From: Bryobacterales bacterium
Lineage (GTDB): Bacteria > Acidobacteriota > Terriglobia > Bryobacterales > Bryobacteraceae
NCBI GenBank assembly: GCA_025463005.1
Contig: JAOAPR010000012.1
Location: forward strand, 62,001 to 126,000
Direction of reading: 5' to 3'
Length of the DNA stretch: 64,000 nt
In this document: positions 58,603 through 60,589 of the stretch, in pieces
Numbering within the stretch: the stretch's first letter is position 1
Layout of the letters: every line of letters begins with the position of its first letter
Program-made: the position numbers and the translations under genes
The notes under the pieces: generated by a model
Seen by the model: only the letters and a program-made list of their open reading frames with translations
Told to the model about the DNA's origin: nothing
Databases searched by the model: none

Positions 58603-59298
58603 CTATTCTTTAACGACCATTGCCTGGCCGGTTGTCTTCTCCACCTCGGCGGCCAGGGCGGTAGCTGCTTGAAAGGTGAGGGCGTGCCCAACCAGCACTC
58701 GCCAGAGTGCGCGATCGCCCTGACGCTCGACCACTCTCGCATCGGAATAGAGGAGCGTGTCCCGAAAGGTTTCGGCGCGCGAGGAATCGGAGAAGGCGCC
58801 GACCTGGACCGCATACCCGGCCACGGGGGTTTGCGGATTATCTTCTAAGGCTTTCACTGGAGGCGGATTCACGGGAGGGTTGATTACGATCAATCGCACT
58901 CGCGCGGTTCCAGTGCGCACGATGTCGAGCTCGCGAGCGGCGGCCATGGACAAGTCAATAATGCGGCCGCGGACGAAGGGTCCACGGTCGGTGATGCGGA
59001 CATCGACCTGCTTCCCGTTCGAAAGATTCGTGACTTCGACCCAGGTCTGAAAGGGCAGAGCGGGATGCGCGGCAGTCAGCTTTTCCATATCGAATATTTC
59101 GCCGGATGCGCTGGGGCGGCCATGATAGGGGACGCCGTACCAACTGGCGATTCCAGTTTCAGTGGAACCGATCCGCGCGGGCGGAGCGGGGAGCCGCGCA
59201 GCGGTGTGCCGGGCGCAACCGCTGACGAGTAGCATCAGCGCGAGCGCACATATAAGCGCGATGCGCGTGCGAGCCGCGTAAACAAGCCCTCGGAGCAC
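58603..59298 (-). CDS. rlpA: RlpA-family lipoprotein (DPBB plus SPOR domain)
   Basis: From GTG 59298 this protein has about 231 residues. The signal (ALICALALMLLVSGC) ends in a lipobox, so it is a lipoprotein. The double-psi beta barrel shows GIASWYGVPYHGRPSASGE and WVEVTNLSNGKQVDVRITDRG, the RlpA lytic-transglycosylase core. Its C-terminal SPOR domain (AGYAVQVGAFSDSSRAETF) binds denuded septal peptidoglycan. A longer frame to 59415 is rejected because it overlaps the mini-gene promoter. Confidence 0.9.
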   Translation of the reverse strand: MLRGLVYAARTRIALICALALMLLVSGCARHTAARLPAPPARIGSTETGIASWYGVPYHGRPSASGEIFDMEKLTAAHPALPFQTWVEVTNLSNGKQVDVRITDRGPFVRGRIIDLSMAAARELDIVRTGTARVRLIVINPPVNPPPVKALEDNPQTPVAGYAVQVGAFSDSSRAETFRDTLLYSDARVVERQGDRALWRVLVGHALTFQAATALAAEVEKTTGQAMVVKE

Positions 59299-59394
59299 TA
59301 AAACAATTCTACTCGAGCTCGTTTTATCGATTCCATGCCGATGAAGAGTCCTTCGAGGTCGGTCCACACCGGTCCCGCGCGGTTCATTTTTTTC

Positions 59395-59423
59395 TTGACT
59401 TTCCAGGGATTCCACCTTATAAA
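59395..59423 (+). promoter_or_regulatory. Near-consensus sigma70 promoter of the mini-gene
   Basis: TTGACT (59395-59400) and TATAAA (59418-59423) are separated by exactly 17 bases. Each hexamer matches the sigma70 consensus at five of six positions. Transcription would begin near 59430, leaving a leader of about 57 nt to the ATG at 59487. It points away from rlpA and towards the K-rich mini-gene. Confidence 0.75.
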
Positions 59424-59486
59424 GGGGACACGACGCGCTCTCTCGGAAGAGTAGCGCTTAATCTGATGTAAAGGGAGAATCACTCG

Positions 59487-59552
59487 ATGAAGAACGCAAC
59501 GAAGAAGAAAGCTGCTGCGAAGAAAAAGGCTGCTCCGAAGAAAAAGAAGTAG
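59487..59552 (+). CDS. 21-codon lysine/alanine-rich mini-gene
   Basis: ATG at 59487 with AAGGGAG ten bases upstream (59471-59477) opens a 21-codon frame ending in TAG. It begins MKNATKKK and contains 11 Lys and 6 Ala in K3A3K3A2PK4 order, like the C-terminal tails of histone-H1-type bacterial proteins. No partner gene shares its strand: rlpA and galU run the other way on both sides. With its own promoter and terminator it is a self-contained unit of about 190 nt. A bias toward AAG/AAA codons alone could make a chance frame of this kind, but the SD, promoter and terminator argue for a real product, peptide or RNA. Confidence 0.65.
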   Translation: MKNATKKKAAAKKKAAPKKKK

Positions 59553-59587
59553 CCAGAGCAGCTCGCTTAGTTTCGAGTTTAACCAAT

Positions 59588-59620
59588 CGGCCCCGAGAAA
59601 TCGGGGCCGGTTTTGTTTTT
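59588..59620 (+). terminator. Intrinsic terminator of the mini-gene
   Basis: CGGCCCCGA and TCGGGGCCG pair over nine bases around a GAAA tetraloop, followed by TTTTGTTTTT. The hairpin starts 36 bases after the mini-gene stop. On the opposite strand the base tract is not U-rich, so it serves the plus strand. Confidence 0.88.
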
Positions 59621-59704
59621 AGAGGAAGCCGTTCAATCGCTGCGCAACACCGTTCAACTGCGCTCTTACGCATTTCGCAGCGTTGCGCGAAACACCACGC
59701 CCGC

Positions 59705-60589
59705 TTATAGCTGAAGCGATTTCAGGTAGGCGCGAAACTCTTCCCCGAGGTCGTAACGCTTCAGCGCGAATTCCACCGTGGCCTTCAGGAAGCCGAGCTT
59801 ATCGCCCGCGTCATAGCGCGTGCCTTCGAATCGATAGCCGTAGATCGGACGACTGCGAAGCGCGTGCTTCAGACCGTCGGTAAGTTGGAGCTCTCCGCCG
59901 CTGCCCGGCTCGATGGTCTCCAGAGAATGGAACACTTCCGGCGTGAGTACATAGCGTCCGATGATGGCCAGATTCGAGGGGGCGTCCTGGGGCTTGGGCT
60001 TCTCCACCAGGTTGCGGATCCGGTACAGACGATCGCGTCCCCCGTTGTGACCCACCGGCTCGGCGTCCACCACACCGTAGGCCGAAATGTTTTCCCGGGG
60101 AACTTCCATTAGGGCGAGCACGGGAGCACCGTAGAACTCGTACACATCCAGTAACTGTCGTAAGGCGGGAACCTCAGCGTCGATCACGTCATCGGACAAA
60201 ATCACGGCGAACGGTTCGTCGCCCACCAGCTCGCGCGCCCGCAGAACGGCATGCCCGAGGCCCAGCGCTTCCTTTTGCCGCACGTAGGCGACGTTGATCA
60301 TGTCGGAGACGGCCCGTACGGTAGCCAGCAGATCCTTCTTATTGCGGGTTTCGAGCAAATGCTCCAGCTCGAAGCTGACATCGAAGTGATCCTCGATCGC
60401 AGTCTTACCGCGGCCGGTAACGATGATGATGTTCTGGACTCCGGAGTGAATGGCCTCTTCGACCCCGTACTGGATCAACGGCTTATCCACCAAGGGAAGC
60501 ATTTCTTTGGGCTGGGCCTTGGTGGCGGGAAGAAAGCGGGTACCAAGTCCGGCGGCGGGGAAGACAGCTTTACGAACCTTTACGCTCAT
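59705..60589 (-). CDS. galU: UTP-glucose-1-phosphate uridylyltransferase
   Basis: GalU makes UDP-glucose from UTP and glucose-1-phosphate, the donor for the glycosyltransferases encoded in this window. The 294 residues include AVFPAAGLGTRFLPATKAQPKEMLP (uridylyltransferase loop), DKPLIQYGVEEA and DDVIDAEVP. The C-terminal part (LVEKPKPQDAPSNLAIIGRYVL) is typical of GalU. Start ATG 60589; a TTG codon lies immediately before it. Confidence 0.96.
   Translation of the reverse strand: MSVKVRKAVFPAAGLGTRFLPATKAQPKEMLPLVDKPLIQYGVEEAIHSGVQNIIIVTGRGKTAIEDHFDVSFELEHLLETRNKKDLLATVRAVSDMINVAYVRQKEALGLGHAVLRARELVGDEPFAVILSDDVIDAEVPALRQLLDVYEFYGAPVLALMEVPRENISAYGVVDAEPVGHNGGRDRLYRIRNLVEKPKPQDAPSNLAIIGRYVLTPEVFHSLETIEPGSGGELQLTDGLKHALRSRPIYGYRFEGTRYDAGDKLGFLKATVEFALKRYDLGEEFRAYLKSLQL

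Follow-up and report, generated by a model that had tools for sequence, protein, structure and literature searches.

The window, the whole stretch of 64,000 nucleotides that was analysed, carries a small transcription unit on its plus strand between two genes of the minus strand. The preliminary description of this DNA had proposed a complete unit here, composed of TTGACT-17 bp-TATAAA, an AAGGGAG Shine-Dalgarno sequence, a 21-codon frame with 11 Lys and 6 Ala, and a 9-bp GC stem with a GAAA loop. Direct reading finds every one of these elements in its place. The features of the locus are the following.

58603-59298, minus strand: RlpA-like gene with the domains DPBB and SPOR (Pfam), which flanks the unit
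59387..59394, plus strand: T-tract (the tract proper is 59387-59393), a possible UP-like element directly upstream of the -35 hexamer; direct reading
59395..59400, plus strand: -35 hexamer TTGACT; direct reading, TTGAC in 112/112 distinct copies
59418..59423, plus strand: -10 hexamer TATAAA after a 17-bp spacer; TA[TC]A in 112 relatives
59435..59457, plus strand: 5' hairpin near the predicted transcript start; fold of the window and pair counts over 46 relatives
59471..59477, plus strand: Shine-Dalgarno sequence AAGGGAG within the wider conserved motif GGGAGAAT; direct reading and alignment of relatives
59487..59552, plus strand: 21-codon frame MKNATKKKAAAKKKAAPKKKK, from the ATG at 59487 to TAG, with 11 K and 6 A; codon test
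59585..59620, plus strand: intrinsic terminator, a 9-bp GC stem CGGCCCCGA-GAAA-TCGGGGCCG with a T-rich tail; direct reading and terminator scan
59705-60586, minus strand: GalU-like gene, NTP_transferase (Pfam), which flanks the unit and is convergent with it

The 5' hairpin and the T-tract are additions to the elements named in the preliminary description. The frame begins 9 nt 3' of the Shine-Dalgarno sequence and ends after its 21 codons, with no attached folded domain of the AlgP or PhaF type. The predicted transcript folds better than its dinucleotide shuffles (z -2.85; 1 of 200 shuffles is equally good). The promoter scan left TTGACT-17-TATAAA unlisted because it accepts only second hexamers that end in T. 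The terminator scan found four terminator-like sites in the 5 kb around the locus where 4.9 are expected, and the site by itself therefore proves nothing. The GGGAGAAT motif occurs at three sites in the window against 2.0 expected, so it is not over-represented. Chance occurrence of the unit is nevertheless rejected by its conservation in the genus and the family and by the promoter of 112/112 copies.

Conservation and spread of the unit

The labels f and g used below denote families and genera arbitrarily; f1 is the family of the source genome, and f11 is, at a guess, Acidobacteriaceae. The class is Terriglobia, a name taken from the record titles.

A 261-base stretch of the locus matches 22 of the 23 genomes of the genus, its own included, at E <= 2.2e-28 over most of its length. 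The sole miss, G002, is a 65% complete genome. The first 30 loci (22 from the genus and eight from other genera of the family) all have the frame, the same promoter and Shine-Dalgarno sequence, and a GC stem after the frame. The frame-breaking changes in close relatives that the preliminary description had named as evidence against a gene are absent, the frame being whole in 22/22 genus loci.

A first covariance model, which extends from the promoter through codon 5, matches 171 of the 200 genomes of the order in which it was searched (170/180 in f1, 1/2 in f2 and 0/18 in f3). The match is a single one in all but four of the 171 genomes. Ten of the 180 f1 genomes have no match to this model, and three of the matches, in genus g8, are weak. 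Among the 30 loci with the highest scores, 29 have an intact frame and one is cut by a contig end; the frame is also present in 17/17 further chosen loci of f1 and f2, low-scoring ones included.

A larger set of copies was assembled by searching the contigs for a pattern of Shine-Dalgarno sequence and start codon. At least 118 stretches match, of which 109 are Lys-rich frames (five of those listed are cut by the end of the locus) and nine are unrelated frames. Most of the 80 record titles among the matches listed read Bryobacterales, Bryobacteraceae, Acidobacteria or Terriglobia. One record titled Bordetella parapertussis (L071, CALQCC020000009.1) also carries the unit, and its title looks wrong. 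The pattern matches listed and the first 30 loci, filtered for a Lys/Ala-rich frame, gave 134 copies with full upstream sequence, 112 of them distinct. These 112 copies, which are phylogenetically non-independent, were picked by DNA similarity or by the pattern and never by the promoter. Because of the filter, the presence of the frame is no evidence in this set, whereas the promoter and the terminator are.

The sequence TTGAC-17/18-TA[TC]A is found in all 112 distinct copies, with a spacer of 17 in 111 and of 18 in one, and in 111 of them at least five of the 10 nt preceding TTGAC are T. A terminator-like site lies downstream in 106/111 copies (one copy was dropped as it has no downstream sequence), compared with 3/110 upstream control stretches. 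The five misses are L030, L034, L101 and L135, which have long frames, and L118, which has a 20-residue frame. In L014, L016 and L017, the second arm of the terminator and the T-tail are duplicated once directly downstream.

The 5' hairpin can be followed through 46 relatives, in which 92.6% of the cells are paired and 38 cells are changed on both sides, as against 11.7 after shuffling. Its covariation score is 0.424, compared with 0.230 for shuffled and at most 0.138 for slid alignments. Five pairs have a change on both sides, a count reached by 63/500 shuffles. The covariation test is biased towards this structure, which had been drawn from the alignment under test. The sequence GGAGAA is invariant in 46/46 (alignment A1).

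The surroundings of the unit vary. At least 75/112 loci have RlpA upstream in divergent orientation and 62 the NtrC-like gene, while at least 16/112 have GalU downstream, some loci being short on one side. RlpA is missing near most copies of the MKSAT type, and in 35 distinct f11 loci the surrounding sequence, to a distance of about 1.5 kb, contains none of the three genes. The unit is autonomous and its neighbours differ, so they give no function. Assignment of a function from them was rejected, as RlpA is the commonest neighbour but there is no constant partner across lineages. The earlier claim of a self-contained gene is supported.

Two weak matches of the first model in f11 proved to be real, with frames of 16 and 14 residues and the same parts. 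A second model, built from 13 f11 units, has matches at E <= 1 in 175 of the 299 class genomes searched, a figure that includes many weak matches. Since it matches the f1 genomes at the place of the first model, the f1 and f11 sets are homologous. Thirty-eight distinct frame-bearing f11 units carry frames of 12-24 residues (MATKKAAKK..., MATKKKAKKKKH) that have no R or acids; L281, also of f11, has 32 residues and contains R. The frame is intact in 30/30 top f11 loci.

Among 39 loci of other families and divergent genera that were read, 26 have a Lys-rich frame (17/19 and 9/20) and 13 have none. Examples are MAKKPAKKAAKKKK in f4, MAAKKKAKKKR and MKKAKKKKKR in f6, and MKCATKKAAKKKPAGKKKGK in f8; Lys-rich frames also occur in f10, f12, f14, f15 and f16. 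R occurs in copies from f6, f10, f14 and f15 and in a single copy from f8. The frame has been read in 11 of the 16 sampled families of the class (f1, f2, f4, f6, f8, f10, f11, f12, f14, f15 and f16). The 175 genomes that the second model matches at E <= 1, out of 299 of the class, include none from f3 or f7, the single matches in f5 (E 0.91) and f9 (E 0.69) are not convincing, and f13 has one match at E 0.01.

Outside the class, the R2 model gives 11 weak matches in a sample of the phylum, with E from 3.5e-5 to 0.084. Ten of these were read (all except G471); a Lys-rich frame is present in four (f84 twice, f18 and f35) and absent in six. As R2 includes 18 nt of the frame start, these matches are suggestive only. 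The loci L310 and L311 (f84) and L317 (f18) have Lys-rich frames of 26-39 residues behind TTGAC/TATA-like sites, and they may possibly be either deep relatives or cases of convergence.

The peptide and selection on its frame

Variation in the genus copies falls mostly at third codon positions, as the preliminary description had anticipated for a translated frame: the variable columns number 4, 2 and 16 of 20 at the first, second and third positions. In 18 genus copies of 21 codons, 65 of the 87 changes are synonymous and 22 non-synonymous, the ratio possible from the consensus being 36:144. The third-position variation and the synonymous excess indicate selection on the amino-acid sequence in these 18 copies. 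The peptide is very likely translated and under selection.

The 112 peptides contain 2877 residues, of which 1324 are K, 911 A and 225 P. There is no R and a single acidic residue in the whole set, and C, W and H are absent; L191, which lies outside the set, contains an R. Of the 104 peptides with 28 residues or fewer, 95 hold 10-11 K, though 61 different sequences occur. The peptide starts with MKNAT in 67 of the 112 and with MKSAT in 23. The predicted peptides are conserved in composition, and the order of their residues is free.

The length is mostly 10-28 residues in the copies read and ranges from about 10 to 120 overall, some lineages having forms of 36-120 residues under the same promoter. 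Six loci (L030, L034, L092, L101, L131 and L135) have frames of 64-120 residues with AAAPAKK/APVK repeats behind the same Shine-Dalgarno sequence and, where tested, the same promoter. In these long repeat forms, the scan found a terminator in L131 and missed it in L030, L034, L101 and L135. They may represent the micro-peptide grown into an H1-like repeat protein. In L203-L208 (g33 of f1) there is a second Lys/Ala frame, MATKKA... of 25-97 residues, with GGGAGAAT. Its upstream region, AAACATTTTT...CATAATG, differs from that of the main unit, and three genomes with this frame (G077, G078 and G094) also hold the MKNAT unit.

Neither a hydrophobic stretch nor anything resembling a signal sequence is present in the 21-residue peptide. 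There is no Pfam family for the 21- and 87-residue forms and no NCBIfam family for four peptide forms, although models of low-complexity sequence are poor. A sequence search of the PDB gave no match, but a query of this length makes it a weak test. The one candidate for a longer paralogue that a search of the source genome yielded (E 0.18, 28% identity, with an internal stop) was not accepted.

The preliminary description had likened the peptide to a histone-H1-type tail. Its Lys/Ala/Pro composition agrees with this, and the likeness to the tails of larger nucleoid proteins is one of composition only. Histone-H1-like proteins of bacteria include Hc1/Hc2 and BpH1, as well as AlgP and PhaF, whose C-terminal domains share with the peptides the richness in Lys, Ala and Pro and the near absence of acidic residues. 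The number of repeats is variable in both the histone-H1-like proteins and the long forms described here. The 352-residue AlgP consists of a 124-residue helical N-terminal domain and a 154-residue region of KPAA repeats, the peptides of which bind DNA in vitro; AlgP is located on polyphosphate granules and PhaF on PHA granules (PMC9239181). The unit differs from AlgP in encoding a stand-alone tail, mostly of 10-28 residues and lacking the KPAA order, with a promoter and terminator of its own. The comparison would thus concern the way of working and not family membership.

Loci that keep the unit without the frame

Thirteen distant loci keep the unit but lack the frame, in support of the earlier suggestion that the product may be the RNA itself. 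All belong to f11 (eight to g122, four to g114 and one to g95). The TTGAC-17-TATA promoter after a T-rich stretch, the GGGAG motif and the terminator stem are kept in 13/13, with short T-runs, and the 5' hairpin is kept in 12/13, the exception being L288.

In g114, ACGCAACC stands at the start in place of the ATGGCAACC of frame-bearing relatives. The four loci differ in length by single bases, an argument against a hidden frame shared by all of them. Compared in bins of 20 nt, these four loci have an identity of 0.64-0.96 within the unit, with the peak of 0.96 around the former start codon. The values are 0.04-0.49 over the 80 nt that precede the unit and 0.27-0.47 over the 80 nt that follow it, and they rise again farther out. 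In g122, the identity inside the unit (6 of the 8 loci) is 0.18-0.80 and less even than in g114. In two g122 loci, L285 and L286, ACG is followed by an apparent relic of the frame, GCGAAAAAG, which in L285 contains a stop, and frame decay there may therefore be recent. Several frameless loci of g122 and g114 hold other ATG or GTG frames, some of which run through the terminator; they are judged unrelated because they lie away from the Shine-Dalgarno sequence and are not shared among the loci. AGGCAA motifs recur between the Shine-Dalgarno sequence and the terminator in the f11 units L212-L232 and L279-L294, and many of the frameless loci contain several of them.

A bias in the frame-bearing copies concerns the same part of the RNA. 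The codon of Ala4, a position left free by the search pattern, is GCA in 103/112 f1 copies, compared with 63/799 later Ala codons; the final C of codon 3 is partly forced by the pattern. Together with the conservation of the frameless g114 loci, this bias points to a constraint on the RNA of its own across the Shine-Dalgarno sequence and the first codons. The needs of translation initiation could account for the codon bias; they leave the conservation in the frameless g114 loci unexplained. A separate role of the RNA is a real possibility, if a slightly less than even one.

No Rfam covariance model reaches its gathering score at 59000-60000 of the window or in 20 related loci. The best matches by E, all below threshold, are BjrC68 on L274 (26.6 bits of 39) and sX6 on the window segment (20.4 of 40). 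The Acido-1 RNA motif (RF01686) is a non-coding RNA candidate of Acidobacteria (PMC2864571); it has no match in the window at 59000-60000 (E up to 10) or in the 20 related loci (E up to 1). In the portion of the open-licence PMC literature covered, no paper that apparently treats this gene was found.

Possible functions of the peptide and its RNA

By combining the observations above, it is possible to describe how the unit might work. The near-consensus promoter, of the sigma-70 type and with a T-tract upstream, would drive the synthesis of an RNA of about 190 nt, which opens with the hairpin and closes at the intrinsic terminator. The good Shine-Dalgarno sequence would direct its translation into a disordered Lys/Ala/Pro peptide nearly free of arginine and acidic residues. 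The good promoter, hairpin, Shine-Dalgarno sequence and terminator suggest a compact unit for a plentiful product. As the peptide consists almost entirely of K, A, P, T and N, the best reading is that it binds polyanions by electrostatic attraction, comparably with the H1-like tails of AlgP and PhaF, and such binding is more likely than not. The peptide would most likely work by its charge, as a minimal polycation similar to a histone H1 tail, on DNA, RNA or polyphosphate. The RNA from the 5' hairpin through the Shine-Dalgarno sequence and the first codons would probably have a second, regulatory role, and this role would be what survives where the frame was lost. The explanation that we moderately favour is thus an autonomous small transcription unit for a peptide acting by charge, with a probable second role for its RNA. 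The peptides of 10-12 residues count against it, as they are very short for compaction of a chromosome. The preliminary interpretation as a whole is partly supported.

It is also conceivable, if rather unlikely, that the peptide alone matters and that the RNA is purely its messenger. The hairpin would then stabilize the 5' end of the mRNA, the conserved start of the frame would aid initiation, and the frameless copies would be remnants. This agrees with the excess of synonymous over non-synonymous changes (65 vs 22), with the frame kept in 30/30 top f11 loci and in the f1 and f2 loci read, and with the relic in L285/L286 and the short T-runs of the frameless copies. It is difficult to reconcile with the frameless g114 unit, which is conserved with sharp edges and best at the former start codon, and in which the one-base length differences argue against a hidden frame; nor does it account for TTGAC-17-TATA in 13/13 frameless loci. 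A second role of the RNA is itself opposed by the possibility that the conserved first codons serve translation initiation, and also by the unevenness of g122, the L285/L286 relic, the short T-runs and the partly forced C of codon 3. The opposite extreme, a regulatory RNA in which the frame is incidental, would fit the frameless relatives, the conserved GGGAGAAT and GCAAC stretches and the GCA bias at Ala4. It is made quite improbable by the third-position variation, the synonymous excess and the length differences in whole codons, and by the absence of R and the one acidic residue in 2877 residues while the nucleotides vary.

The peptide could instead be a micro-protein with one specific site on the ribosome or RNA polymerase, comparable to the small ribosome-associated proteins bTHX and bL37. 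Its size, charge and good promoter, and the single match in each of the 171 matched genomes except four, would suit such a role, but the order of residues is unconserved, the length varies from 10 to 120, most copies have no aromatic anchor and the PDB sequence search (a weak test with so short a query) gave no match, which leaves this proposal improbable. A type I toxin or a secreted antimicrobial peptide would likewise be small and cationic with its own promoter; since the peptide has no hydrophobic stretch or signal-like sequence and nearly every genome of the family has one chromosomal copy, this function is highly improbable. A short Lys-rich frame followed by a terminator also resembles an attenuator leader that senses Lys codons for a neighbouring gene. 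However, the next gene in the window is the GalU-like gene, convergent and on the minus strand, so that no co-directional gene is present, and the neighbours vary among lineages; such a leader is extremely improbable.

The favoured dual reading, as peptide and RNA, has parallels in SgrS/SgrT and RNAIII, which are dual-function small RNAs. Like these, the unit would specify a short, independently transcribed RNA with a terminator, a small frame, constraint beyond coding, and loss of the frame in some lineages; in the four g114 loci the unit is constrained without the frame, as is expected of such an RNA. The unit differs from SgrS/SgrT and RNAIII in that it is the frame that most lineages have retained, and in having no known target or base-pairing region. 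We tentatively propose that the unit is an old dual-function RNA of Acidobacteriota, which would serve as a regulatory RNA and at the same time as the mRNA of what may be the smallest family of stand-alone polycations resembling histone tails, and that some lineages dropped the peptide (g114, g122) or grew it into an H1-like repeat protein (64-120 residues).

The gene is present in 170/180 genomes of the family, as a rule in one copy, and is undescribed in the family libraries searched. Its peptides go down to 10 residues, and charge is their most conserved property. The range from 10 to 120 residues under one promoter may offer a natural series for the polycation need of the chromosome or of a polyphosphate store, and the loci in which the frame was lost and the RNA kept would be a natural experiment that separates the function of the peptide from that of the RNA.
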